Assembly: GCF_001984155.1 (NCBI RefSeq)
Contig: NZ_MTQO01000052.1
Coordinates: 372,001-436,000 of the forward strand
DNA length: 64,000 bases
Reading direction: 5' to 3'
From: Actinosynnema sp. ALI-1.44
GTDB taxonomy: Bacteria; Actinomycetota; Actinomycetes; Mycobacteriales; Pseudonocardiaceae
The translations under genes and the position numbers were made by a program. The notes beneath the pieces are model-generated. The model did not search any database, was not told the origin of the DNA, and saw only the letters and a program-made list of their open reading frames with translations. Position 1 is the stretch's first letter. Every line of letters begins with the position of its first letter. Below, one piece after another: positions 228-27,238 of the stretch.

Positions 228-2225
228 TTACACTAGTTCCAGGGGGTCCAGGCGGACTCGGATGGATTCTGGTTCTTTGCGTGCTGTTCTTTCCTTTTGT
301 GCGACGGTGAGTGCCGCCGCCAGCGCGCGGCCGTCTGTCCGGGGTGTTCGGACTAGTGCTCGCTCGTCTTTTTCGCCTATTGGTACTGGGCCGAGGATTT
401 CCGCTGTTTCGGGAAGGGTCAGGTGGTCCAGGTATTCTGCCAGGGCTTCCGGGGATCCGTCGACGGATGCCATTCGTACCGCTGGGGGGAAGCCCAGTTC
501 TACGCGGGCTTCCAGTTCCTGTTCCGCGTGCCAGGCCGGGTCCCAGCGCACCAATGCCTGTACTGGGGCGAATGCCGACTCGGCCACCACGACCACGCGG
601 CCGCCGTCGGGTGCTGGGCGGACCAGTGCTGCCGCGCCCATCCAGCGGCGCAGGGTCTCCTCGGTCGCTCTCAGGTCCGCTCGACCGAGCAGTGCCCAGC
701 TGTCCAACAGAAGCGCTGCTCCGTAACCGCCTTCCGCCACCGGCTCGGCTCCTGGTGTGCACACCACCAGCGCCGGGGCGCTGGACACCGTGGCAAGGAC
801 TTCATCCGCGCCGGAGGTTCGCACGGGGATTCCCGGGAATGCGCGGCCCAGTTCTTCCGCTGTTCTCTTCGATCCGACGACCACTGCTCTCAGGCGCCGT
901 GATCCGCAGTTGCCACAACGGAATGCCGCCTCGGCCGCGCCGCACCAGCGACAGGCGGCAGGACGAGCCATGCCGTCGTCGTGCCCGCCTGGCAGGGCCA
1001 GTGGGCCCGCGCACCTCCGGCACCGCGCCGGTGCACGGCACTGCGCACACGCCAACGCGGGTACGTATCCGCGGCGTGGGACCTGGACCAGCACCGGCGC
1101 TCCTGCTGTCAGGGCATTGCGCGCCGCTTCGAAGCTGACCGACGGCAGCCTGGCCGCGCGGGCCGCCGGGTCTCTGGCCAGTTGGACGTCGGTCTCACCG
1201 ATCGCCGTCACCCGTGGGGCGGACTTCCTGACTTCGTCCCTTGCCGCGACCAGTTCGTGTGCCCAGCCCGTGTCCAGCAGCAGCTGGGCCTCCGCTGTTC
1301 TGGCGAACCCGCCGATCACCATCGCCGCGCCGGTCTGGTGGGCCCGGAGGGTCAGCACCTCACGCACGTGGGCGTACGGCGATCGTTGATCGGCGTGCAG
1401 GTCGTCGCCGTCGTCCCAGACGACGACCAGACCCGGGTCCTTGACCGGGGCGAACGCGGTCGCGCGGGTACCAAGGACGATCTTCGCCGAGCCACGCAGG
1501 ACCGAGAGCCAGCGTTTGTACCGCGTGGACGGGCCCAGGTCGGCCGAGAGGGCGACCACGGCCGACTCGCGCTCCTTGCCGACCAGGTCAAGGCACGCGG
1601 CGTGCAAACGTGCCACATCGCGGTAGTCGGGGACGACCATGACCACGCCCCGGCTGGTCGCCGCCACCGTCACCGCCAGTTCCGCCAGGCGGCGGGGCCA
1701 GTCCTCGTTCGGCAGCGCCTGCCAGACCGCGTGGGCGTTGCGGCCTGCTTTCAGCGCGTCCAGGAACGCCGATCCCCGCGGGTAACGGCCCCAGCCGGTC
1801 TCTGCCGGTGGGTCGACGTCGACCGGCTCCGGCGACGGCGCCGATTCGGCTCGGGCATGGCGCGGCGGGATCGCCAGGCGCAGCACATCCATCATCGCGC
1901 CCGCGTACCGGTCGGCCACCGCCCTGGCCAACTGGGCGACCTGCGGCGCGAGCACCGGCTCGGCGGACACGACCTTCTCGAGGAACATCGGCTTCGGGTG
2001 TTCGGACTCCGCCGCGCGCTCGATCACGTAGGCGTCGACGAGTCTGCCGGAGAACCGGACACGAACCCGACAGCCGGGTACCACTTGTTCGTCAAGATCC
2101 GACGGGATCAAGTAGTCGAACGTCTTGTCCAGATGCGCCAGCGGCACGTCGACGTAGACACGGGCAACCGGAAGGGCCTCAGCTGGATGCCGTTCGCCTC
2201 TGTTCCGCTTACCTGCGTTGACCAC
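228..2225 (-). CDS. priA: PriA-like primosomal protein N', helicase-degenerate
   Basis: Replication-restart protein of the PriA family, about 665 aa from a GTG at 2225. The N-terminal DNA-binding domain (PVARVYVDVPLAHLDKTFDY) is well conserved, as is the GTRATAFAPVK segment of the helicase core. The zinc-binding region keeps its cysteine pairs (CAQC, CRRC, CRWC, CGNC). The Walker A motif is gone (GRNAHAVW where GxxGxGKT is expected) and the DEEH box reads DDGDD, so ATP-driven unwinding is unlikely, as known for actinobacterial PriA. The open frame runs on to 2375, but that extension lies in a dispersed repeat, so I prefer the internal GTG; no strong Shine-Dalgarno supports either. It is last in the metK side of the block. 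Confidence 0.88.
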   Translation of the reverse strand: MVNAGKRNRGERHPAEALPVARVYVDVPLAHLDKTFDYLIPSDLDEQVVPGCRVRVRFSGRLVDAYVIERAAESEHPKPMFLEKVVSAEPVLAPQVAQLARAVADRYAGAMMDVLRLAIPPRHARAESAPSPEPVDVDPPAETGWGRYPRGSAFLDALKAGRNAHAVWQALPNEDWPRRLAELAVTVAATSRGVVMVVPDYRDVARLHAACLDLVGKERESAVVALSADLGPSTRYKRWLSVLRGSAKIVLGTRATAFAPVKDPGLVVVWDDGDDLHADQRSPYAHVREVLTLRAHQTGAAMVIGGFARTAEAQLLLDTGWAHELVAARDEVRKSAPRVTAIGETDVQLARDPAARAARLPSVSFEAARNALTAGAPVLVQVPRRGYVPALACAQCRAPARCRRCAGPLALPGGHDDGMARPAACRWCGAAEAAFRCGNCGSRRLRAVVVGSKRTAEELGRAFPGIPVRTSGADEVLATVSSAPALVVCTPGAEPVAEGGYGAALLLDSWALLGRADLRATEETLRRWMGAAALVRPAPDGGRVVVVAESAFAPVQALVRWDPAWHAEQELEARVELGFPPAVRMASVDGSPEALAEYLDHLTLPETAEILGPVPIGEKDERALVRTPRTDGRALAAALTVAQKERTARKEPESIRVRLDPLELV

Positions 2226-2287
2226 GCACTGAGGTTTACCAGAGGCTCGAAAGAAGACCATCTCCGCCCAGCCCAAGCCAGCCCCGC

Positions 2288-2577
2288 GCAACCACAGCCC
2301 CAGCCAGCAGCGCGCAAGCGCAGAGTGGGGCTTCGGGGGTGTCTCCTGCCCGTCGGCCTGGGCGAAGCCAACCACGGGCTGTCAAGAGGTCGGCCTCCCC
2401 AAAGAGCCCCAGCGACAGCCATACCGATCCTCTTGATAGACCGTGGTTCCCTGGGGCAGGTCGACGGGCAGGAGGCGCCCGCGCCTCACAACCCCGGGAC
2501 AAGAAAAGCATGCGCCGGGAGAAACACGACGCGAAGAACCTCCTGCCCAGAGGTCAGCCCCCGGCGAGGGCTTCTTT
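2288..2577. repeat. Intergenic modular repeat, copy A
   Basis: Fills most of the 435-bp gap between priA and metK. It holds the module CGCGCAAGCGCAGAGTGG (from 2311) followed by GCTTCGGGGGTGTCTCCTGC, a middle hairpin, then a second module with GACGGGCAGGAGGCG, AAAAGCATGCGC and ACACGACGCGAAGAACCTCC leading to GGCGAGGG. The same modules recur at 15968-16106 (inverted) and 27088-27182. No supported gene lies here. Confidence 0.8.
2371..2447. repeat. Imperfect 19-bp inverted repeat inside copy A
   Basis: Arms 2371-2389 (ACCACGGGCTGTCAAGAGG) and 2429-2447 are complementary at 17 of 19 positions, with a loop of about 39 nt. It separates the two outer modules of repeat copy A and is absent from the other two copies, so it may be an element inserted into a repeat or a variable module. 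Confidence 0.65.
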
Positions 2578-2611
2578 CAACCGGCGAAAGCTCCTTCAAA
2601 AAGGCGCAACA

Positions 2612-2644
2612 AAGCAAAACGGCGCGAGCAAAGCCCGCGCCGTT
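2612..2644 (-). terminator. Rho-independent terminator of metK
   Basis: Perfect 9-bp stem, 2618-2626 with 2636-2644 (AACGGCGCG paired with CGCGCCGTT), 9-nt loop. Read on the minus strand it starts 16 nt after the metK stop and is followed by a T-rich run (TTTTGCTTTGTTG). It suggests that priA is largely transcribed separately from metK. Confidence 0.8.
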
Positions 2645-2660
2645 CGTGTGGCTGTAACCG

Positions 2661-3866
2661 TCAGAGACCGGCGGCCTGCTTGAGGGCCTCGGCGCGGTCG
2701 GTGCTCTCCCACGGCAGGTCGAGCTCCGGGCGGCCGAAGTGGCCGTACGCCGCGGTCGGCGCGTAGATCGGCCGCAGCAGGTCCAGGTCACGGATGATCG
2801 CGGCCGGACGCAGGTCGAAGACCTGGGAAATCGCTTCCTGGATCTTCGTCGGGTCGACCACCTCGGTCCCGAAGGTCTCCACGAACAGACCCACCGGGGC
2901 CGCCTTGCCGATCGCGTAAGCCACCTGCACCTCGACACGCGTGGCCAGCCCCGCCGCCACCGCGTTCTTGGCGACCCAGCGCATCGCGTACGCCGCGGAG
3001 CGGTCCACCTTCGACGGGTCCTTGCCCGAGAACGCGCCACCACCGTGCCGCGCCATCCCGCCGTAGGTGTCCACGATGATCTTGCGGCCGGTCAGGCCCG
3101 CGTCACCCATCGGACCGCCGATGACGAACCGGCCGGTCGGGTTCACCAGCAGGCGCACGTTCGACGTGTCCAGGGTCAGGTCCGCGAACTCCGGCTCCAT
3201 GACCTGCTCGCGGATGTCCACGCCGAGCAGCCGCTCCAGGTCGATGCCCTCGGCGTGCTGCGAGGACACCACGACGGTGTCCAGCCGCACGGCCTGGTCA
3301 CCGGCGTACTCGATGGTCACCTGGGTCTTGCCGTCCGGCCGCAGGTACGGCAGCACGCCGTCCTTGCGGACCTTGGTCAGCCGCTTGGAGAGCCGATGCG
3401 CGAGCGCGATCGGCAAGGGCATCAGCTCTGGCGTGTCGTCGCACGCGTAGCCGAACATCAGGCCCTGGTCACCGGCGCCCTGGCGGTCGATCTCGTCGTC
3501 GGCCGACTCGACACGGGATTCGTAGGCGGTGTCCACACCCTGCGCGATGTCGGGCGACTGCGACCCGATCGAAATGTTCACACCGCAGGAATTGCCGTCG
3601 AAGCCCTTGGCCGACGAGTCGTAGCCGATCTCGAGGATCTTCTCCCGCACGATCGCCGGGATGTCCGCGTATGCCTCGGTGGTCACCTCACCGGCGACGT
3701 GCACCTGGCCGGTGGTCACCATCGTCTCGACGGCGACGCGGCTGCGTGGGTCCTTGCGCAGCAGGGCGTCCAGGATCGAGTCGCTGATCGCGTCACAGAT
3801 CTTGTCCGGGTGCCCCTCCGTGACCGACTCCGACGTGAACAGCCGGCTGGCCTTGTTTTGTGCCAT
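2661..3866 (-). CDS. metK: S-adenosylmethionine synthetase
   Basis: Forms S-adenosylmethionine from methionine and ATP in the cytoplasm. The 401-aa length is normal for the family. Visible signatures are GHPDK (residues 18-22), the hexapeptide GAGDQG (130-135) and the P-loop-like [16 protein letters not shown] near 276-291. ATG start at 3866 with a purine-rich GAGGGG just upstream. It follows coaBC after 51 bp and is followed by a strong terminator. The coaBC-metK-priA order matches mycobacteria and streptomycetes. Confidence 0.98.
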
Positions 3867-3917
3867 TACCCCTCACTTCATCACGGATGAGCTGCATGGA
3901 TCAGACTACTGAAGGAT

Positions 3918-5171
3918 TCAGCCAACCGTTCGAGAAGTGCTCGACTTCATGACGAAGTCCCAGATACCGGCCGCCATTTGCGCCTTTGACCCCAGTGCGA
4001 TAGGCCTTTCGGAGCCGTCCGCCGCGAGCAGCCACCCGGCGTTGTCCTCGACCTCGAAGGCCTTGCCGTCCCCGACGGCGTTGACAACCAGCAGGTCACA
4101 GCCCTTGCGGGCGAGCTTCGCACGCGCGTGCGTGAGCACGTCGCCGCTCTCGTCCCCGGTTTCGGCGGCGAACCCGACGATGTACGGGTCGAACTTGCCG
4201 TCCGACCGGGCCACGACGAGTTCGCGCAGCACATCCGGGTTGCGGGTGAGCGCGACCGGATCGGGGTCCTTGTCGGTCTTCTTGATCTTGTGGGTGGCCA
4301 GGCTGACCGGGCGGAAGTCGGCGACCGCGGCGGCCATCACCACGATGTCGGCCTCGGCGGCGGCCTTGTGCATGGCGTCCCGCAGTTCCAGGGCCGTGCC
4401 CACGTTGACGACGTCCACGCCCGCGGGCTCGGGCAACGCGACAGTGTGCGCGGAGACCAACGTGACCTGCGCGCCGCGCTGGGCAGCGACCCGCGCGAGG
4501 GCGTAGCCCTGCTTGCCGGACGATCGATTGCCCAGGTAACGGACGGGGTCCAAGGGCTCTCGTGTCCCGCCGGCGGACACCACGACCCGCTTGCCCGCCA
4601 TGTCACGAGGCAGCGCGTCGGCACGGGCCAGCAGCAGCCGGGCGAGGTCGACGATCTCGGTGGGGTCGGCCAGGCGGCCTTTGCCGGTGTCGGTGCCGGT
4701 CAGCCGTCCGCTGGCGGGTTCGGTGACCACGATGCCGCGGGACCGCAACAGCGCGACGTTGTCCTTCGTCGCGGGGTGGTCCCACATCTCGGTGTGCATC
4801 GCCGGGATCATCAGCACCGGGCACCGCGCGGTCAGCAGGGTGCCGGTGAGCATGTCGTTGGCGTTCCCGTGCGCGGCCCTGGCCAGCAGGTCCGCGGTCG
4901 CGGGGACGACGACGACCAGGTCGGCCTGCTTGCCGATCCGGACGTGCGCCACCTCGGGAACGTCCTCGAAGACGCCCGTGTACACGGGGTTGTGCGACAA
5001 CGCCTCGAAAGTGGCCTTGCCGACGAAGTTCAGCGCCGACTCGGTCGGCAGCACCTGCACGTCGTGACCGGACTCGGTCAGCCTGCGCAGGACCTCACAG
5101 GCCTTGTAGGCGGCGATGCCGCCGCCGACCCCGAGCACCACCCGGGGACGGGCGGAAGACGGGGTGGTCAC
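3918..5171 (-). CDS. coaBC: Bifunctional CoaBC: phosphopantothenoylcysteine decarboxylase / phosphopantothenate-cysteine ligase
   Basis: Catalyses two successive steps of coenzyme A synthesis. The N-terminal half (about 1-185) is the flavin-dependent decarboxylase CoaC, with [11 protein letters not shown] at the start and PAMHTEMW in place of the usual PxMNxxMW; the His variant is common in actinobacteria. The C-terminal half is the CTP-dependent ligase CoaB with [20 protein letters not shown]. 417 aa is usual. The GTG start overlaps the rpoZ stop by 4 bp (GTGA), so the two are translationally coupled. Confidence 0.97.
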
Positions 5172-5449
5172 TCGCCTTCGGTGTGCTCGAGCAGGCCGGA
5201 GTGGATCTCGCGAAGCGCGATGGACAGCGGCTTCTCGCGGGGGCCGGGCTCGACGAGCGGGCCGACGTACTCGAGCAGGCCCTCGCCGAGCTGCGCGTAG
5301 TAGTCGTTGATCTGACGGGCGCGCTTGGCCGCGTAGATCACCAGCGCGTACTTCGAGCTGACCTTGTCAAGCAGGTCGTCGATCGGCGGGTTGGTGATGC
5401 CTTCCAGGTTGGTGGTCGGCTCGCCCAGTGCGCCCAGCTCGGTGGTCAA
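5168..5449 (-). CDS. rpoZ: RNA polymerase omega subunit
   Basis: Small 93-aa omega subunit that assists assembly of the beta' subunit. The typical core [20 protein letters not shown] and AAKRARQIN is at residues 21-48, with an acidic C-terminus (LLEHTEGE). It lies 18 bp after gmk and overlaps coaBC by 4 bp, the classical gmk-rpoZ-coaBC order. Confidence 0.97.
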
Positions 5450-5467
5450 GTGAAACTCCAGGGGTTT

Positions 5468-6073
5468 TCAGACAGCGGTACCAGTCATCAAGGTTAGCAA
5501 CTCGGCCGCGGCCTGCTTCACGTCGGTGTTCACCACCAGCGCGTCGAACTCGCCCTGCGCGTCCAGTTCCTTCTCGGCCACGGCCAGCCGATGCCGGACG
5601 ACCTCGGGATCCTCGGTCCCCCGGCCGGTCAGCCTGCCGACGAGGGTCTCCCACGACGGCGGAACGAGCATCACCAGCTGAGCTTCGGGCATCGCGACAC
5701 GCACCTGTCGCGCGCCCTGCAGCTCGATCTCGAGGATCGCCGGTTTGCCCGCGGCCAGCGCGTCGAGCACCGGCTGACGGGGTGTGCCGTAGCAGTTGCC
5801 CGCGTACTCGGCCCATTCGAGCAACTCGCCACGCCCGGCCATCTCGTCGAACCGCGCGCGGTCGACGAAGTGGTAGTGGGCGCCGTCGACCTCGCCGGGG
5901 CGCTGCTTGCGGGTGGTCATCGAAACACTGAAGAAGACCGTCGGGTCCATCCTGCGCAGCTCGGCCACCACAGTGGACTTGCCGACACCGGACGGGCCCG
6001 ACACGACAGTGAGCCGGGGCCGGGCGCGCACACCCGTCCCCGGCTCTCCTGTGCTCAAGTGACTGCCAGTCAC
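5468..6073 (-). CDS. gmk: Guanylate kinase
   Basis: Phosphorylates GMP to GDP. P-loop GPSGVGKST lies near residues 26-34, followed by the GMP-binding region [13 protein letters not shown] and [10 protein letters not shown]. 201 aa. The GTG start shares 4 bp with the mihF stop. The first ~19 residues (glycine- and threonine-rich) are a variable extension, so a slightly later start is possible. Confidence 0.97.
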
Positions 6074-6387
6074 TCGCCGCTGAACTCAGCGAGCAGCGCT
6101 TTGCGCTGCCGGTCGCCGAGACCCCTGAGACGGCGGCTTGGGGCGATCTGCAAGCGCTCAATGATTTGGTTGGCACGCACCTTGCCGACGCCGGGGAGGG
6201 CCTCCAGCAGTGCGGTTACCTTCATCTTGCCCAAGACCTCGTCGCTGTCGGACTGGGCGAGCACGTCCTTGAGGGTCGTGCCGCCTCGCTTCAGGCGCTC
6301 TTTGAGCTCAGCCCGGGCCCGACGAGCGGCAGCCGCCTTCTCCAGCGCTGCGGCCCGCTGCTCCTCGGTCAGCTGGGGAAGGGCCAC
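6070..6387 (-). CDS. mihF: Actinobacterial integration host factor mIHF
   Basis: Nucleoid-associated DNA-binding protein restricted to actinobacteria, 105 aa. The basic alanine-rich N-terminal helix ([20 protein letters not shown]) and the helix-two-turns-helix region [20 protein letters not shown] are recognisable. It lies between pyrF and gmk as in mycobacteria and streptomycetes. The 111-bp gap upstream (6388-6498) probably holds its own promoter, but I could not fix -35/-10 boxes with confidence. Confidence 0.96.
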
Positions 6388-6498
6388 GATTTCCTCCGTG
6401 GGGTGGGTGTTTCCGGATCGGGTGCTGGCGACCGTACCGACACGCCCGGGTCAAGGACAACGTGGGTCTGCGATCCTGCGCAGATCACGCGTGGTACA

Positions 6499-7331
6499 TC
6501 AATGGTGACCCGCGGCCGACACGATCGCGTCACGGGTGCGCAGAGCCTCACTACGCAGCGCGAACACGTCCGGGCCCGCCTGGAGTACCCCCCTCGACGA
6601 CGTGGGAAGCACGCTACGCAGGGATTTTCCGAAGAGTGTCCGCATATCGGACAGCGTGCCCCCTTGTGCCCCGAACCCCGGCACCAGCAGGGGTCCGTTG
6701 AGCGTGCCCAGGTCCACGCCGAGCGACCCGATGGTGGCCCCCACAACGAGACCGATTCCCCCGATCGGCCGAACGCCCGCGTTGCGTTCGGCGGCAGCGT
6801 CCACGACCGTTTGCGCGATGCTGCGTGCGCCGTTGAGCGCACGCTGCACCTCCGGCGCCTCAGGGTTCGAGGTCAGAGCAAGGACGAAAACGCCCCGCCC
6901 GGACTTCTCCGCCGCCTGCAACGCGGGTTCGAGAGAACCGAAACCGAGGTAGGGCGACAGTGTTACGGCGTCAGCCGCGAGCGGGGACCCGTCGGTCAGG
7001 TACGCCGCGGCGTAGGCCGCCATCGTCGAGCCGATGTCGCCGCGTTTGACGTCCAGCAGGACGAGCGCGCCTGCCTGCTGGGACTCCGCGATGACCCGCT
7101 CGAGCACCGCGATCCCCTTGGACCCGTGGCGCTCGAAGAACGCCGACTGGGGCTTGAGGACGGCGATCTCCCCCGCCATGGCCTCGACGCAGGTCATGGC
7201 GAACCGTTCGAGACCGTCGGGCGTGTCGGCCAGGCCCCACTGCTCCAGCAGGCCCGGGTGCGGGTCGATGCCGACGCAGAGCTGACCGCGCTGCGACACC
7301 AGCGCGGTCAGCCGGGCGCCGAACGATTCCG

Positions 7332-7335
<4 letters not shown>
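6499..7335 (-). CDS. pyrF: Orotidine 5'-phosphate decarboxylase (type 2)
   Basis: Last step of UMP synthesis, decarboxylating OMP. 278 aa, of the longer mycobacterial/myxobacterial type. The catalytic motif [11 protein letters not shown] and the substrate region [13 protein letters not shown] are present. It overlaps the carB stop by 4 bp (ATGA), making it the last gene of the pyr operon proper. Confidence 0.97.
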
Positions 7336-10658
<3,323 letters not shown>

Positions 10659-10661
10659 CGC

Positions 10662-11771
10662 TCAGGCCTCATCCATCAACGTCACGAACTGGTCGAACAG
10701 GGGCGCGGCGTCGTGCGGACCCGCCGCCGCCTCGGGGTGGTACTGGACGCTGAACGCGGGCACGTCCACACAGCGCAGGCCCTCGACGGTGCCGTCGTTC
10801 GGGCAGTAGTGGCTCACCTCGGCCACGCCGTAGGGCGTGTCCAGTTTCTGTCCAGCCTCGCCTTCCAGCGCGAAGCCGTGGTTCTGCGCGGTGATCGCGA
10901 CGCGGCCGGTGGCCGCCTCGATCACCGGCACGTTGATGCCGCGGTGGCCGTACTGCATCTTGTACGTGCCCATGCCCAGCGCCCGGCCGAGGATCTGGTT
11001 GCCGAAGCAGATGCCGAACAGCGGGATCCGGCGCTCCAGCACCTGCTGGGTCAGCTCGATCGCGTGCGCCTGGGTCTGCGGGTCACCGGGGCCGTTGGCG
11101 AGGAAGACGCCGTCCGGCTCGACCGCCAGCAGGTCGTCCAGCGTGGACCCGACCGGCAGCACGTGCGTCTCGATGCCGCGGTCGGCCATCATCCGCGGCG
11201 TGTTGAACTTGATGCCCAGGTCCAGCGCGGCAACCCGGAACCGCCGCTCGTCCGCCGCGGGCACGACGTAGGTCTCCTTGGTGCTGACCGCGCCGGACAG
11301 GTCGGCGCCCTTCATCTTCGGGCTGTCCTTGACCGCCTGGACCATCGTGTCCACGTCGGTCAGCGCGTCACCCGCGAAGATCGCGGCGCGCATGGCGCCC
11401 TGCTCGCGGATGTGCCGGGTGACCGTGCGGGTGTCGACGCCCGCGATCCCGACGATGCCCTGGCTGACGAGCTCGTCGTTCAGCGAACGGCGCGACCGCC
11501 AGTTGGACGGGATCCGCGCCGGGTCGCGGACGACGTACCCGGCGACGTGGATCTTGCGCGACTCGTCGTCCTCGTCGTTCCACCCGGTGTTGCCGATCTG
11601 CGGGGCCGTCGCCACCACGATCTGGCCGTGGTAGGACGGGTCGGTCAGCGTCTCCTGGTAGCCGGTCATCGCCGTGCAGAACACGACCTCGCCGAGTGTC
11701 GACCCGGTCGCGCCGAACGCCTCTCCCCGGAAGACCCGGCCGTCCTCAAGCACCAATGCAGCTGGTGTCAT
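10662..11771 (-). CDS. carA: Carbamoyl-phosphate synthase small subunit
   Basis: Glutamine amidotransferase subunit feeding ammonia to CarB. 369 aa: N-terminal CPSase small-chain domain (LVLEDGRVFRGEAFGA) and a class I glutaminase domain with the nucleophile in FGICFGNQILG and the His-Glu pair in YHPEAAAGPHD. The start overlaps the preceding membrane-protein stop by 4 bp (ATGA). Confidence 0.99.
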   Translation of the reverse strand: MTPAALVLEDGRVFRGEAFGATGSTLGEVVFCTAMTGYQETLTDPSYHGQIVVATAPQIGNTGWNDEDDESRKIHVAGYVVRDPARIPSNWRSRRSLNDELVSQGIVGIAGVDTRTVTRHIREQGAMRAAIFAGDALTDVDTMVQAVKDSPKMKGADLSGAVSTKETYVVPAADERRFRVAALDLGIKFNTPRMMADRGIETHVLPVGSTLDDLLAVEPDGVFLANGPGDPQTQAHAIELTQQVLERRIPLFGICFGNQILGRALGMGTYKMQYGHRGINVPVIEAATGRVAITAQNHGFALEGEAGQKLDTPYGVAEVSHYCPNDGTVEGLRCVDVPAFSVQYHPEAAAGPHDAAPLFDQFVTLMDEA

Positions 11772-12271
11772 TTCGCCGCCCCTCCTTTGGCCAGGCCAGT
11801 CAGTGCCTCGACCCAGTCCGCGTACACGTCTTTGTCATCTCCCCTGAAGCCGGTGTCGAGCTCGTGCTCGCCCAGGCGCCAGCGCACGACGAGCAGCCCG
11901 TCGCGCTTCATCACCTTCCCGGCGATCGCCCGGTCGGTCCTTGCGCTGACCACGGACTCCGCCGGAATCCACACCCGGTCGGCGCCTTCCCGGTCGAACA
12001 GCACGCCGTCGCCGGTCAGCCGCACGGTCGCGGCAGCGCGGAACCCGACGTCCCCGACCGCCACCCGGTCCTGCCAGCTCTTCGCGGTCGTCGTGCTGAT
12101 GTACACGCCGGTCACGGGTTCGAGCAGCTCGTCGGTGAGGTTTTCCGGCGGCGCCGGGAACTCGGGCAGCACAGGGCGCTGCCTGCGCGCGCGGTTGCGG
12201 TAGCCCCACCACATGGCCAGCACGCACAGCAGGAAGAACGCCACGACCGCGAGCGTCAGCCAGATCCTCAT
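11768..12271 (-). CDS. Single-pass membrane protein of the pyr operon
   Basis: 167-aa protein of unknown function. One N-terminal transmembrane helix (residues 2-23, starting [14 protein letters not shown]) is followed by a cytosolic globular domain of about 130 aa with no motif that I recognise. ATG at 12271 overlaps the pyrC stop and its own stop overlaps carA, so it is translated within the pyrimidine operon. A similar small membrane protein sits between pyrC and carA in many actinobacteria, including mycobacteria, so a role tied to this pathway is plausible but unproven. Confidence 0.85.
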
Positions 12272-13551
12272 CGGACGGCCTGCCCGTCCCGCGCGGTGAG
12301 CTTGCCGCGCAGCATCGTCGCCTTGACGACGCCGGGGAGCTCCATCCCCTCGTACGGGGTGTTGCCCGCGAGACTGGCCAACCGCGCGCCATTCACTGTC
12401 CACGTCGCCTTCGGGTCGACCAGGACGAGGTTCGCCGGTTCGCCCGCCGCGATCGGACGGCCGTGGTCGGGCAGTCCGGCGATCTCCGCGGGCCGCTCGC
12501 TCATCACCCTGGCCACGCCGCGCCAGTCGAGCAGCCCGGGCTGGACCATCGTCCGGACCACCACGGACAGCGCCGTCTGCAGGCCGAGCATGCCGGGCCG
12601 CGCCGCGGACCACTCACAGTCCTTGTCCTGCGGGGCGTGCGGTGCGTGGTCCGTGGCGACGCAGTCGATCACGCCCTCGGCCAGCGCTTCCCTCAGCGCC
12701 TTGGCGTCCGACGACGTGCGCAGCGGCGGGTTGACCTTGTTGACCGGGTCGTAGGTGTTGAGCCGGTCGTCGTCCAGCAACAGGTGGTGCGGGGTCACCT
12801 CGGCGGACACCTGCGTCCCGCGTGCCTTCGCCCAGCGCAGCACGTCCGCGGTTCCGGCGGTGGACACGTGGCAGACGTGCAGCCGGGCGCCGACGTGCCC
12901 GGCGAGCAGGCAGTCACGGGCGACGATCGACTCCTCGGCCGCCGCGGGCCACCCCGCGAGACCGAGGCGCGCGGCCGTCTCGCCTTCGTGCGCCTGCGCG
13001 CCGACGGTCAGGCGAGGCTCCTCCGCGTGCTGCGCGATGAGCACGTCCAGGCCCCGGCTGTACTCCAGCGCGCGTCGCATGATCAACGGGTCCGCGACGC
13101 ACAGGCCGTCGTCGGAGAAGATCCGCACGTTCGCGTCGCTGCGTGCCATCGCGCCGAGCTCGGCCAGGCGCTCGCCCTTCAGGCCGACCGTCACCGCACC
13201 GATCGGGTGGACATCGACCAGGCCGACCTCACGTCCGCGCCGCCACACGTGTTCGACGATCACCGGGTTGTCGGCGACCGGGTCCGTGTTGGCCATGGCG
13301 AACACCGCCGTGTAGCCGCCGAGCGCGGCCGCCGCCGACCCCGTCTCGATGGTCTCGGTGTCCTCACGACCAGGCTCGCGCAGGTGCGTGTGCAGGTCGA
13401 CGAAACCGGGCAATGCGATGAGGCCGTGGGCGTCGATGACCTCGCCGCCATCGGATTCCGGCGTTCCGATCTCGGAGACGAAGCCGTCCTCGATCAGGAT
13501 GTCGACCGGATCACCCTCGCCGTACGGCACGGCGCCCTTGAGCAGCGTCAT
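12268..13551 (-). CDS. pyrC: Dihydroorotase
   Basis: Cyclises carbamoyl aspartate to dihydroorotate. 427 aa from the ATG at 13551 ([14 protein letters not shown]); the open frame extends to 13881, but that part overlaps pyrB and is not family-like. Zinc ligands are visible in [10 protein letters not shown] and in the HVCHVST and ATDHAPH segments. It overlaps pyrB by 4 bp (ATGA). Confidence 0.97.
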
Positions 13552-14480
13552 GCGACTTCCTCTTCTCCGGCGAGCAGGTGGTACAGCACGGCCATGCGGA
13601 CGTGGACTCCGTTTCGTACTTGGTCGGTGATCGCGGCGCGTGGCGAGTCCGCGACGACGGACGCGATCTCCATGCCGCGCAGCATCGGTCCGGGATGCAG
13701 CACGACAGCGTGGTCGGGGAGCAGGCGCATGCGCGCCTCCGACAGACCGTAAGCGATGGAGTACTCGCGTGCCGAGGGGAAGAAGCCGCCGTGCATCCGT
13801 TCGGCCTGCACGCGCAGCATCATCACAGCGTCCACAGCGGACAGTTCGGCGTCGAGTTCGTGCGAGACCGTGACAGGCCAACCGGAAACGCCGGTCGGCA
13901 GCAGAGTCGGCGGTGCGACGAGCACGACCTCCGCGCCGAGCGTTGTGAGCAAATGCACGTTCGACCTGGCCACACGGCTGTGCAGCACGTCACCGACGAT
14001 CGCGATCCGCCTGCCGTCCAGACCGCCGAGCCGCTCCCGCAACGTGGCGGCGTCGAGCAACGCCTGCGTGGGGTGTTCGTGCGTGCCGTCGCCCGCGTTC
14101 ACCACCGAGGTGTGCGTGTGCGACAGCCACCCGGCCAGCCTGTGCACCGCACCGGAGGCCGGGTGGCGGACGATGACGCAGTCCGCGCCCGCGGCGGCCA
14201 GCGTGAGAGCCGTGTCACGCAGCGACTCGCCTTTGCCGACCGACGACCCGCTCGACGACACGTTCACGACGTCCGCGCTCATCCACTTGCCCGCGATCTC
14301 GAACGAGACACGGGTGCGGGTCGAGTTCTCGTAGAACATCGTGATGACCGTGCGGCCCCGCAGGGTCGGCAGTTTGCGTACCTCGCGGCCCAGCAACGTC
14401 TGCTTGAGCGAGTCCGCTGTGTCCAGAACGGCAGTCGCCGCGTCACGGCTCAGGCCGTCGCAGCTGAGAAGGTGTTTCAT
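13548..14480 (-). CDS. pyrB: Aspartate carbamoyltransferase catalytic chain
   Basis: Condenses carbamoyl phosphate and aspartate. 310 aa. Carbamoyl-phosphate motif [12 protein letters not shown] lies near residues 50-61 and HPTQALLDA near 136-144; the C-terminal [12 protein letters not shown] is typical. No regulatory chain (pyrI) is present. It overlaps pyrR by 4 bp. Confidence 0.98.
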
Positions 14481-15049
14481 CCCACAAGCTCCACGGCGTC
14501 GCGGCCGTCCAGTTCCTCGAGCAGCACCTCGATGCCCTCCGACCGCGCGGTGGGCACGTTCTTGCCCACGTAGTCGGCTCGGATGGGCAGTTCGCGGTGG
14601 CCGCGGTCGACAAGGACCGCCAGTTGTACCGCCCGTGGCCTGCCATGGTCACGCAGCGCATCCAAGGCAGCACGGACGGTTCGACCCGAATAGAGCACGT
14701 CGTCGACCAGGATGACCAGTTTGTCCTCGATGCCGCCGTCGGGCAGGCTCGTCGGTTCGAGCGGGCGGTTGGGGTGGCGGCGCAGGTCGTCGCGGTAAAG
14801 CGTGACGTCGAGCACGCCCGTGGGGACGTCGGCTCCGCTGAACTCCGCGATCCGCGCGGCCAATCGCTTGGCCAGAGGTGCGCCCCTGGTCGGTATGCCG
14901 ATCAGCACGACTGGAGCAGCGTCGGTACCACCGAGAGTCGTCTTCTCGATGACCTGATGGGCCATTCGGGCGACAGTGCGCGCGACGTCCCCGGCCGAAA
15001 GCAGCTCGCGCCGCTCGCCGGGATCCGCCGCGCCACGGGTGCGTGGCAC
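14477..15049 (-). CDS. pyrR: PyrR bifunctional pyr operon regulator / uracil phosphoribosyltransferase
   Basis: Senses UMP/UTP and binds pyr mRNA; also converts uracil to UMP. 190 aa from a GTG at 15049, with AAGGAGG nine nt upstream. The PRPP-binding motif [18 protein letters not shown] and the hood motif [10 protein letters not shown] are present. First gene of the operon; a candidate PyrR target loop lies directly before its ribosome-binding site, which fits autoregulation. Confidence 0.97.
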
Positions 15050-15056
15050 TGGCGTG

Positions 15057-15084
15057 GACCTCCTTCCCCGCCTCTCCGGACGGG
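15057..15084 (-). promoter_or_regulatory. Candidate PyrR-binding RNA loop next to the pyrR ribosome-binding site
   Basis: On the minus strand, 15084-15067 reads CCCG, then the loop TCCGGAGAGG, then CGGG. The loop matches the PyrR-binding consensus (UCCnGAGAGGC) known from Bacillus. It runs straight into the AAGGAGG ribosome-binding site at about 15059-15065. This layout fits the translational repression proposed for mycobacteria rather than an attenuator; no terminator hairpin with a U-run is visible here. Confidence 0.7.
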
Positions 15085-15203
15085 TCGTTAAAGGATGTCA
15101 AGGACCCTTGTTACCAGGGTCATCAGGCACGTTACCAGGGCACATGGGTACACCGTCCGGGTGGTATTGGCGCCCATCTCGATACTGCAACTGAGCGAGG
15201 TGC

Positions 15204-15232
15204 TTGACCTGGTGGCCACGGCAAGTAACCAT
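15204..15232 (+). promoter_or_regulatory. Possible bldD promoter
   Basis: TTGACC at 15204-15209 followed after 17 bp by AACCAT (15227-15232), about 80 bp before bldD. The -35 box is good, the -10 poor. No clear BldD operator was identified. Confidence 0.3.
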
Positions 15233-15311
15233 TACTCTGCGTATCGATCTCAGCAGAGACCCGACGGCTCGCCTTCCCGGCCGTCGGGCGAAGGAAATGG
15301 AGAACCGCCAC

Positions 15312-15800
15312 ATGGGCGATTACGCCAAGGCGCTAGGGGCCAAGCTCCGTGGCATCCGCCAGCAGCAAGGCCTGTCGTTGCACGGCGTCGAGCAGAAGTC
15401 CGGCGGACGCTGGAAGGCAGTCGTCGTCGGCTCGTACGAACGCGGCGACCGTGCAGTGACCGTGCAGAAGCTGGCCGAGCTGGCTGACTTCTACGGGGTA
15501 CCGGTGGTCGAGCTCCTGCCTGAGGGAAGGGTCCCCTCCGGTGCCGAGCCCGCCACGAAGATTGTGATCAACCTGGAGCGACTGCAGCAGCTTCCGGCCG
15601 AGAAAGTCGGCCCGCTGGCACGCTACGCGGCCACCATCCAGAGTCAGCGAGGAGACTACAACGGCAAGGTTCTGTCCATCCGGACCGAGGACCTGCGGTC
15701 ACTCGCCATCATCTACGACATGACCCCCGGCGAGCTGACCGAGCAGCTCATCGACTGGGGCGTGCTCCCGCCGGAAGCAAGGCCGTCCAAAGAGGACTGA
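15312..15800 (+). CDS. bldD: Developmental regulator BldD (c-di-GMP-responsive)
   Basis: 162-aa homologue of the Streptomyces master repressor of development. N-terminal XRE-type HTH (about 3-75: LGAKLRGIRQQQGLSLHGVE, then SGGRWKAVVVGSYERGDRAV) and a C-terminal c-di-GMP-binding domain with RYAATIQSQRGDYNGKVLSI. The R-G-D and nearby R-x-D elements used for c-di-GMP binding in Streptomyces BldD appear kept (RGDYN; RTED). ATG at 15312 is preferred because GGAG lies 9 nt upstream; an ATG at 15297 is possible. It is divergent from pyrR. Confidence 0.95.
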   Translation: MGDYAKALGAKLRGIRQQQGLSLHGVEQKSGGRWKAVVVGSYERGDRAVTVQKLAELADFYGVPVVELLPEGRVPSGAEPATKIVINLERLQQLPAEKVGPLARYAATIQSQRGDYNGKVLSIRTEDLRSLAIIYDMTPGELTEQLIDWGVLPPEARPSKED

Positions 15801-15805
15801 GGAAC

Positions 15806-15857
15806 ACCGGCTGCGCGTTGGGGGACCCATAGGGCAGAAGGGTGACGCGCAGCCGGT
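15806..15857 (+). terminator. Hairpin downstream of bldD
   Basis: Perfect 13-bp stem, 15806-15818 (ACCGGCTGCGCGT) with 15845-15857, loop 26 nt, starting 6 nt after the bldD stop. No T-run follows, as is common for actinobacterial terminators. Confidence 0.6.
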
Positions 15858-15967
15858 CGGCGCTGAGTACTTCGGTGTCGTGGGTCGCCCCTGCGCGGCC
15901 TGATCTCTCGCCTGGACGTCGGTCGGCAACGCCGCTGGCCTTCCGGGTTTCGATCTTCGGGCGGAAA

Positions 15968-16106
15968 GACAGCCCCTCGCCGGGTGGCAGACCTCTGGGC
16001 AGGAGGTCTTCGCGTCGTGTTGCTACCCGCGCATGCTTTTATGCCCCGGGGTTTCAGGGCGCGGGCGTCCCCTGCCCGTCGAAGCACCACTCTGCGCTTG
16101 CGCGCG
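15968..16106. repeat. Intergenic modular repeat, copy C
   Basis: Most of the 15858-16137 space. In the plus direction it reads CCCTCGCCGGGTGGCAGACC, a self-complementary AGACCTC-TGGGCAG-GAGGTCT, CTTCGCGTCGTGTTG, GCATGCTTTTATGCCCCGGG, then CCTGCCCGTCGAAGCACCAC and TCTGCGCTTGCGCGC. It is the complete, uninterrupted version of the modules seen in inverse orientation in copy A, and shares both ends with copy B. Confidence 0.8.
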
Positions 16107-16137
16107 GCTGTTTCGGGCTGGCTTCGGACTCGCGGTT

Positions 16138-16299
16138 TCATCCGGCGAGGCGGGTGAGCCAGGCTTCGAATTCCACGGCGCCGTACAGCCAGGCCCGGTC
16201 GGTAGTCGGTGCGTCGGCGCCGGTCAGAGCGGTCAGCTCGCGGTGTTTGTCGATGATCGGCTGCCGTGGCGAGGATACCGCGCTGCCTCCCTCGTTCAG
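16138..16299 (-). CDS. Possible small protein downstream of nusB
   Basis: A 53-codon frame with strongly GC-biased third positions, ending in the hydrophobic-acidic tail VEFEAWLTRLAG. It has no ATG/GTG near its apparent start: the only boundary codon is a CTG that overlaps the nusB stop (CTGA). Either it uses that CTG by coupling, or it starts at a GTG far inside nusB (16443), or it is a decayed gene end. No family recognised. Confidence 0.3.
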   Translation of the reverse strand: MNEGGSAVSSPRQPIIDKHRELTALTGADAPTTDRAWLYGAVEFEAWLTRLAG

Positions 16300-16715
16300 A
16301 GAGTCGCGCGCAGTCTGTCCGCGATCGTGGCGATCCGGCCGAGCAGGCCGTTGACGAACCGGGGTGAGTCGTCGGTCGACAGCATCTTGGCGAGCTGGAC
16401 CGCCTCGTCGATGGCCACCGCGTCCGGCACGTCCGACGCCCACAGCAGCTCGTACAGGCCGAGGCGCAGCACCGCGAGGTCGACCGCGGGCATCCGGTCC
16501 AGCGTCCAGCCCTCGGAGTGCTCGGCGAGCAGTTCGTCGATGCGGGTCATCTGCGACTGCACGCCCTCGACCAGCGTGACGGTGTAGTCGTTCACCGGTG
16601 GCACGTCGGGTGAGCCGACCCGGTCGGCCAGCAGGCTGACCGGGTCGACTTTCCTGAGCTGCGCTTCGAAGAGGAGGTCGACGGCGCGTTTGCGGGCTTT
16701 GCTCCGTGCGCCCAT
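16296..16715 (-). CDS. nusB: Transcription antitermination factor NusB
   Basis: Binds boxA RNA with NusE in rRNA antitermination. 139 aa from the ATG at 16715 (MGARSKARKRAVDLLFEAQL); the frame extends upstream into efp but that part is not NusB-like. The C-terminal block DAVAIDEAVQLAKMLSTDDS and FVNGLLGRIA is typical. It starts 1 bp after the efp stop. Confidence 0.96.
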   Translation of the reverse strand: MGARSKARKRAVDLLFEAQLRKVDPVSLLADRVGSPDVPPVNDYTVTLVEGVQSQMTRIDELLAEHSEGWTLDRMPAVDLAVLRLGLYELLWASDVPDAVAIDEAVQLAKMLSTDDSPRFVNGLLGRIATIADRLRATL

Positions 16716-16716
16716 C

Positions 16717-17283
16717 TCAGCTGGAGACTCGGCCGAGGTAGCGGCCGTCCCTGGTGTCGACCTTGACCTTCTCGCCGGTCGAGAGGAAGAGCGGAACCTG
16801 GATCTCCGCACCGGTCTCCAGCGTCGCGGGCTTGGTCCCCCCCGTCGAGCGGTCGCCCTGCAAGCCGGGGTCGGTGTGCTGGATGACCAGCTCGAGCGAG
16901 GTCGGCAGCTCGACGTAGAGCGGCACGCCCTCGTGCTGGGCCACGGTGACCTCGGTGTTCTCCAGCAGGTAGTTCGCGCCGTCGGCCACGACCTCCTTGC
17001 TCACGTGGATCTGCTCGTAGGTCTCGCCGTCCATGAACACGAAGTCGGTGCCGTCGGCGTAGAGGTACGTCATCGAACGGCGGTCGACGGTCGCGGTCTC
17101 CACCTTGGTGCCCGCGTTGAACGTCTTGTCGACGACCTTGCCGGACAGCACGTGCTTGAGCGTTGTCCGGACGAACGCCGGGCCCTTGCCGGGCTTGACG
17201 TGCTGGAACGACACGACCGTCCACAGCTGGTTCTCGAGGTTGAGAACCATTCCGTTCTTCAGGTCGTTGGTGGTGGTGGCCAC
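16717..17283 (-). CDS. efp: Elongation factor P
   Basis: Rescues ribosomes stalled at proline runs. 188 aa, normal. GTG start at 17283 with GGAGAG about 8 nt upstream; the longer frame to 17316 lacks support. The tip loop reads [10 protein letters not shown], with a lysine at the position modified in other bacteria; no epmA/epmB modification gene is in the window. Order pepQ-efp-nusB is the usual actinobacterial one. Confidence 0.97.
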
Positions 17284-17341
17284 GGGTTCGACTCTCCTGT
17301 TTTCAGCAGTGTTCAATTCTTGGCCAAGGGCGTGCTTGCGT

Positions 17342-18451
17342 TCACACGACCATGAGTTGCTTGGTGGTCAAGGTGAGGAGTTCGGGACCGGCCTCCCGCA
17401 CGACAAGCGTGTCCTCGATTCGGACACCGCCCTTGCCTGCGAGGTACACGCCAGGCTCCACGGTGACCGCCATGCCGGCCGAAAGTGTACCTTCACCGGT
17501 CCTTGCCAGGCTCGGGGCCTCGTGAATCTGCAGGCCAACGCCGTGTCCGAGACCGTGCAGGAACTCGGCGCCGCGCCCGGCGCGGTCGATCACGTCACGG
17601 GAGGCCGCGTCGATGTCCTTCACGTCCGCGCCGGGCTTCAGCGCCGCGCGGCCCGCCGCCTGCGACTCCGCGACGAGCTCATAGATCTCCTTCTGCCAGT
17701 CCTCGGGTTCGCCGAGCACGACCGTGCGCGTCATGTCCGAGTGGTAGCCGTCGACCAGCGCGCCGAAGTCCATCTTCACGAAGTCGCCGGGCTTGAGGAC
17801 CGCGTCGGTGGGCCGGTGGTGCGGGATCGCGGAGTTCGCGCCCGTGGCGACGATCGTCTCGAACGACGGCTTCTCGGCACCGTTGGCCAGCATCCGGTCC
17901 TCCAGCTCCCGCGCCACCTCGCGCTCGGAGCGCCCCGGGCGCAGGCCGCCGTTCTCCACCAGCTCGGCCAGTGCCCGGTCCGCGGCGGCGCACGCCATCC
18001 GCAACGCCTCGACCTCGGTGTCGTCCTTGACGATCCGCAGCTTCTCGATCATCCCCGGCGCACGGATCAGCTCGATCCCCCCGGCCGCGTCGGCCAGACC
18101 GTCCAGCTGCTCGACGGACACGTGGTGGCTCTCGTACCCGGTCCTGCGGTGCTTGCTCTTCTGCGTGGCCATCTTGTCGACCAGCGCGGTCGCGCTCGGC
18201 CGGTCGATGAGCCGTTCCAGGTCGGGTACCTGCTTCTCGGCCTGGGTCAGGTAGCGGCCGTCGGTGCAGAAGACGGTGTTCTTCTCGTCACCGGGGCTGT
18301 CGGTCGCGTTCACCGCGAGCGCTGCGTTCGATCCGGTGAACCCGGTGAGGTAGCGGATGTTCAGCAGGTCGACGACGAGCAGGGCGTCCAGCCCCCGCTC
18401 CCGGAGCTGGGTACGCAGGGCTTCGCGGCGGCGGGCGTAGAGCTCAGACAT
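17342..18451 (-). CDS. pepQ: Xaa-Pro aminopeptidase/dipeptidase (M24 family)
   Basis: Dimetal peptidase that cleaves X-Pro bonds. 369 aa: N-terminal creatinase-like domain (1-135) and a C-terminal pita-bread catalytic domain. Metal ligands are visible as Asp in MDFGALVDG and YHSDMTRT, His in GLGHGVGL and Glu in TVEPGVYL and VRIEDTL. It lies 58 bp upstream of efp in the same direction. Confidence 0.93.
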
Positions 18452-27087: not shown

Positions 27088-27182
27088 GCAACCACGGCCC
27101 CAAGCGCCCGCGCGCAAGCGCAGAGTGGTGCTTCGGGGGTGCCTCCTGCCCATAGGTCTGCCACCCGGCGAGGGACCGTCTT
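27088..27182. repeat. Intergenic modular repeat, copy B
   Basis: Begins 1 bp after the DUF4386 gene stop. Reads GCAACCACGGCCCCA, GCGCGCAAGCGCAGAGTGG, TGCTTCGGGGGTGCCTCCTG, then CCCATAGGTCTGCCACCCGG and CGAGGGACCGTCTT. It is a short form: the central part found in copies A and C is missing and the two end modules are joined directly. Confidence 0.8.
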
Positions 27183-27238
27183 GAAAGACCCAAGATCCCC
27201 ACGACGAACGCAAGACCCACCGCGCAAACGCCATAGAG

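Follow-up and report, generated by a model that had tools for sequence, protein, structure and literature searches.

What kind of sequence appears in related form between the genes of this region, and how did it reach its present positions? The window which we have analysed has 64 kb and corresponds to C49:372001-436000 of the 11.71-Mb, 54-contig host genome. The original prediction described three copies, A, C and B, in positions 2288-2577, 15968-16106 (inverted) and 27088-27182. They are present there and their relatedness is far above chance: E=6e-31 for A vs C, E=1e-15 for A vs B and E=2e-9 for C vs B (blastn in the 64-kb window). The shared end modules are found in the copies, as are the core motifs CCTCCTGCCC and GGGCAGGAGG. 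However, this is not a family of three. Copy C alone gives at least 127 partial matches in the host genome, about 45 of them covering most of the core; the family has at least about 40 loci in the host, a lower bound with 40 of the 87 candidate regions scored. In its relative G002 at least 30 loci were fetched (40 of 126 candidate regions scored). With copy A as query, all congeners except G006 have matches at E<=1e-5; at the same threshold there is none in the 52 genomes of other genera in the sample.

The unit and its three forms

A complete unit, such as copy A (about 270 bp), has a constant order: a 5' tail, a hairpin of 144 bp which we call H1, a core of about 110 bp, the 3' motif CCCGGCGAGGG and usually a short T run. 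The tail is made of repeats similar to GCGCNNGCGCAG, variable between copies and degenerate farther out than the innermost unit. The middle of the core has at least two types. The T run is found in most host units listed, not in every genus read. In the host genome we have located 46 oriented cores, 40 of which were aligned; the host stretches fetched contain 51 H1 hairpins, and 51 units are listed. The features of copies A, C and B are collected in Table 1.

Table 1. Features of the repeat in the window (positions counted from its first nucleotide)
Feature	Position	Strand	Description or basis
Copy A	2305-2578	+	Single complete unit, from tail unit through H1, core and 3' motif to T run; blastn and genome copies
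Neighbours of copy A	priA 228-2147 or slightly upstream; metK 2661-3866	- (both)	Gene calls
Innermost tail unit GCGCGCAAGCGCAGAGTGG	2310-2328	+	Copy A
H1 hairpin of copy A	2329-2478	+	Covariance model R1 and covariation
H1 outer stem, copy A	2343-2360 with 2457-2474
H1 small hairpin GGGCGAAGCC, copy A	2360-2369
H1 inner stem, copy A	2370-2393 with 2424-2448
Core of copy A	2461-2570	+	Ends in hairpin ACCTC..GAGGT (2538-2554), then CCCGGCGAGGG (2560-2570)
T run TTCTTT of copy A	2572-2577	+	Directly after the 3' motif
Copy C	15964-16106	-	Unit without most of H1; junction GCTTC/GACGGG
Neighbours of copy C	15297-15800; 16296-16715	+; -	Convergent genes
Copy B	27108-27189	+	Minimal form with tail unit, CTTCGGGGGTG, CCTCCTGCCC, CCACCCGGCGAGGG and GTCTTGAAAGAC; flanking genes convergent

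Each copy in the window represents a different form: A is a complete unit on its own, C is one without most of H1 and B is a minimal form. Copy C had been taken as the whole 139-bp unit, but the complete one is A, with tail, H1 and core, whereas C is without most of H1. Copy B had been described as a central deletion. It is an internally deleted unit, without H1 and most of the core, but the full unit is A and not C. The seam of B is found at CTCCTGCCC, which is a direct repeat within copy A. The junction of C is absent from six other printed cores; those without a full H1 break elsewhere, and their different breakpoints make them look like separate deletions or truncations. We have read 16 minimal forms, five in the host and 11 in G002; all but one have 63-71 bp. 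Most of those in G002 have their own 3' ending in common, so they have probably spread as minimal forms.

Units are also found as doubles: two non-identical units in inverted orientation (tail-H1-core-centre-core'-H1'-tail'), forming a palindrome of about 600-650 bp with a centre of 103-132 bp (10 doubles measured). Taking a BLAST span of at least 330 bp, 21 of the 40 host loci and 11 of the 30 loci in G002 are doubles, some with a diverged second arm. Their spans are 375-679 bp; the shorter ones are probably partial. In the host 15 inverted H1 pairs were confirmed. Homogenisation of the arms inside doubles was not seen for H1 in these 15 pairs: identity is 0.904 within the element and 0.898 for all pairs, and 943 of 2000 permutations are as high. 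An "inverted centre segment" was merely the orientation of the whole element and has been withdrawn. Eight host copies lie less than 1 kb from the ends of contigs (C12, C14, C16, C26, C34, C35, C36 and C46): long palindromes may therefore break the assembly, and the copy number may be underestimated.

Tails differ among genomes. In G247 (L312-L317) the 5' tails are long and consist of degenerate tandem repeats, each of about 22 bp; from the outer end inwards the type of repeat drifts. Some of these tails begin soon after a terminator-like hairpin or the stop codon of a gene. Saccharothrix algeriensis (G302) has tails with repeats of about 31 bp.

Two observations concern the priA neighbour of copy A. 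About 130 bp downstream of its stop codon, in positions 20-95 of the window (- strand), there is a match to group II intron domain V-VI (Rfam RF00029, 51 bits). It is probably a remnant of such an intron, since it is too near priA for a whole one. The PriA protein in JOAA01000015.1 (L187), labelled as Rhodococcus rhodnii NRRL B-16535, is 92% identical to that of the host; this entry is apparently mislabelled.

Pairing and distribution of the H1 hairpin

An alignment and a secondary-structure model had been suggested as a check. With MAFFT we have aligned 34 H1 hairpins, which come from every genome of the host genus but G006 (seven of eight). The alignment was not fitted to the structure, and in roughly one third of the rows one helix is one base out of register, which lowers the scores. 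Covariation is nevertheless strong. Paired cells reach 90.0%, with a mean of 82.6 in shuffled alignments; the covariation score is 0.247 vs 0.135, and 91 cells are changed on both sides vs 31.7. In these three measures no shuffle out of 500 is as high. Sliding the partner by one column reduces pairing to 46-54%. Two other counts do not stand out: the pairs changed on both sides (13 of 41 vs 11.0 shuffled, 49 of 500 shuffles as high) and the 40 further pair types (79 of 500 as high). The fold of H1 is kept by paired changes.

From this alignment we built the covariance model R1, used with E<=0.001 and at most 10 candidates scored per genome. Copy A, which is among the 34 sequences of the model, has 150.4 bits on the + strand and 72.6 on the other. 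R1 matches 83 of 297 genomes of Pseudonocardiaceae, in 22 of 46 genera, including the eight genomes of the host genus. Over the class, the host is the only one matched among 246 genomes sampled (21 of the 246 rows are listed, one for the host and 20 for genomes of its order that belong to other families). The matches viewed in other genera keep GGCCTG-like letters, the small GGC..GCC hairpin and mostly ..GGCAGGCC round the junction; many of them also have a related 3' motif. They are thus not merely generic hairpins. The behaviour of the latter is illustrated by Rfam: seven loci gave only microRNA-precursor matches, far under the cut-off, and in the window Rfam had no match at copies A, C and B.

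Gene neighbourhoods and empty sites

No locus tabulated overlaps a called gene. We have counted the gene pairs around each locus as convergent/tandem/divergent. The counts are 15/16/2 in the host (33 resolved loci, seven of 40 unresolved), 13/15/1 in G002 (29 loci, one of 30 unresolved) and 12/4/0 for the 16 minimal forms, compared with 9/37/22 in 68 background gaps longer than 60 bp. When the three sets are pooled, convergent gaps are enriched (Fisher, P=1.3e-6) and divergent gaps are avoided (P=4e-6). The 13 loci from other congeners (3/10/0) are not clearly enriched in convergent gaps and only lack divergent ones; when they are added the values become P=6e-6 and P=7e-7. The background comes from gene calls in 129 kb of the host and 39 kb of G002, obtained with a simple codon-score caller instead of a standard gene finder. 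The convergent test is conservative, since part of this background was fetched because it bears elements. The family has a preference for the 3' ends of genes. On the chromosome of G002 only one of the 35 listed full or near-full loci is found in 3.0-7.5 Mb (P=1e-6, for an interval chosen post hoc); the minimal forms show no such depletion (5 of 13).

Empty sites in close relatives, another suggested check, were found in several cases: the A site and the sites of two doubles. The ortholog of positions 1600-17400 in G002 is 95% identical over its longest stretch. Between the flanking matches the A site has about 340 bp in the host, about 50 in G002, 85 in G001 and 15 in G006; the element is absent from these three, by coordinates and in the aligned sequences. 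In G003, G004, G005 and G007 the gap measures 0.4-1.7 kb and gives no match to the element at E<=1e-10. As for the other two copies, G002 has only a tail-like remnant at the C site, and 1.4 kb without an element match at E<=1e-10 at the B site. The double at C35:125.7 kb is missing from all four relatives read by sequence (G001, G002, G003, G004). In its place there is a GGCCC..GGGCC-type hairpin in G001, G003 and G004 and another short hairpin in G002. The double at C51:304 kb, which together with its tails measures about 1.15 kb, is absent by coordinates in G001, G002, G003, G004 and G007; for G002, G003 and G004 the sequence was read. Two sites are not clean: at C51:290 kb the element is present in G002, and at C35:109 kb the site is occupied in relatives by other sequence of about 1-2 kb. 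Target-site duplications are limited to one imperfect 17-bp candidate at C51:304 kb, with none clear at copy A.

The element is present or absent at orthologous intergenic sites, and copies cluster separately in each of two species. In a tree of 100 H1 hairpins (FastTree, midpoint-rooted, no support values considered) 50 of the 51 host copies fall into one shallow group, separate from those of G002; the remaining one is found at a site common to both species. Six copies in G247 differ in their flanks and are near-identical over about 250 bp. Sequence could also pass from one existing site to another by gene conversion, but sites which are empty in several relatives speak for gain. Some of the turnover may be loss, since four host loci share flanks with an element-bearing locus among 43 fetched from relatives (L009, L011 and L043 with G002, L027 with G005).

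Mode of spread

The original prediction suggested a mobile palindrome of REP or MITE kind. Mobility and palindromic nature agree with the copy number, empty sites, species clustering, covarying hairpins and the location outside genes. That the family belongs to the REP-RAYT system is not supported, with no Y1 match in the host or its closest relative and no common GTAG/CGTC tag read. We consider it probable that these are non-autonomous, gene-less mobile palindromes of Pseudonocardiaceae, similar to REPINs and MITEs and moved in trans by an enzyme. Such an enzyme would recognise a folded single strand, either DNA or RNA, and would copy the element into gaps downstream of genes. Insertions might survive mainly where no promoter is hit. 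The arms of the stems may stay complementary partly through template switching of a polymerase between them.

A companion transposase, which had been suggested as a further search, was not found; the genome-wide search covered one transposase family, Y1_Tnp (PF01797), in the eight genomes of the genus, and as a control it found this family in 5 of 14 known genomes. There was no match in G000, G001, G002 and G007, which include the host and its closest relative, and all four have H1 hits. The trans-acting enzyme need not be of the RAYT kind, since these genomes have no PF01797 match, despite some in G003-G006. REPIN-like genome residents thus extend to genomes of Pseudonocardiaceae in which the known REP enzyme did not turn up, and a further mobility system can be sought. 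A search which covered part of the literature found no description of this repeat family.

The palindromes might instead serve the host: between convergent genes they would terminate transcription in both directions or stabilise RNA, selection would keep them and recombination would spread them. This is rather unlikely, but several features point to it. Convergent gaps are enriched, relatives have short hairpins of terminator type at C35:125.7 kb where the host has the element, and most host units end in the sequence form of a hairpin followed by a T run. However, the copies read in G247 and G089 have no T run. Nor do single units in tandem gaps clearly favour the sense orientation (same/opposite: 5/2 in the host, 7/4 in G002, 2/2 for minimal forms and 4/6 in other congeners). 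Moreover several orthologous gaps lack the element, and copy A adjoins a hairpin retained after metK.

The counts of G-U and A-C pairs are divided. On the sense strand of the unit the arm-by-arm comparison of 50 representatives gives 120 G-U to 56 A-C, which speaks for this host-serving reading. By set, each clustered separately, the ratios are 19:3 in the host, 29:10 in other congeners, 34:10 in other genera and 38:33 in G002; taken by itself G002 has no bias. The alignment of 34 congeneric H1 hairpins has 84 G-U to 14 A-C cells, 23 against 12 by pair columns. Whole folds of 49 representatives have no strand bias (169 to 175), and the sense strand folds better in 30 of them, the other strand in 18 (P=0.11). 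All these sequences are kin and nominal P values overstate. With such mixed evidence we have set aside an RNA-only reading.

Bacterial MITEs are gene-less, dispersed and have inverted ends, as the double form does. We find it quite unlikely that the family consists of MITEs of an ordinary DDE transposon whose terminal inverted repeats are the tails or the outer arms. In favour of it, the outer arms are inverted, several Saccharothrix algeriensis copies have ACCGGT at both outer ends, and there is the imperfect 17-bp flanking duplication. But terminal inverted repeats are present in double elements and absent from single and minimal units, copy A has no clear duplication, and neither a parent transposon (with PF01797 as the one family searched genome-wide) nor a fixed target duplication was found; no gene between the arms was noticed in the fetched loci, which were read incidentally in this respect. 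The foldback transposons of eukaryotes also have long inverted arms with variable tandem sub-repeats; they belong to another domain of life and there is no evidence of a common origin. A comparison with integron attC sites did not fit.

The REP-RAYT system proper is very improbable. As described in PMC3116915 and PMC3733652, REPINs and REPs are extragenic, high-copy palindromes located at 3' ends, which form families within a genome and inverted doublets as a larger unit, in gaps between convergent and unidirectional genes; our family agrees in all this, and a Y1_Tnp match does occur in half of the eight congeneric genomes (G003-G006). However, its units are several times longer (about 65-270 bp instead of 20-40 bp), with an internal-loop/junction hairpin, and H1 is found in the four genomes without a PF01797 match. 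There is no common GTAG/CGTC tag either: on inspection by eye, GTAG is missing from copy A and the CGTC of this copy is part of a paired arm, and the minimal forms share no such tag. CGTC-tagged REPs, as reported in PMC3733652, are also palindromic repeats without a dedicated transposase, but they differ in sequence class, size and host group, and CGTC is not a shared unpaired tag here. An artefact (chance similarity, decayed genes or misassembly) has next to no likelihood: eight host copies do lie near contig ends, but it is refuted by the covariation of H1 and by the presence of the family in G002, a genome in one contig, and in G302, on a single contig of 6.88 Mb.

Within the preferred reading of mobile palindromes moved in trans, the stems of Saccharothrix deserve attention. 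The contig of S. algeriensis has 41 forward and 40 reverse pattern matches (none in the control), which correspond to about 41 hairpins. We have read 34 loci (L274, L292-L300 and L353-L372 among them); three places were read twice and there are 25 distinct hairpins. Their inner stem has 11 consecutive variable pairs, each with two to four Watson-Crick types. This block has 17 alleles among the 25 hairpins and no half-changed cell out of 275. Outside it, the same stems have one-sided changes, with G-U at four pairs and A-C at one. Lockstep changes of this kind are what template switching would produce; PMC8794818 describes it as a route to change both arms at once. The alternative is strong selection for pairing. 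The 25 hairpins are a natural data set to compare stepwise compensatory mutation with template switching as ways of keeping long stems paired. We also suggest, as a tentative reading with the odds against it, a non-RAYT class of self-templating mobile palindromes: a folded single strand would move and one arm would be regularly rewritten from the other, so that variation enters both arms together. If this is true, a population of hairpins could persist across a bacterial family without a transposase of its own. The right-hand hairpin of the same species agrees with the lockstep pattern on fewer data: in 10 sequences, which have no more than four stem alleles, six variable pairs are all changed on both sides, and at the base of the stem one pair is half-changed (A-C) in two of the 10.
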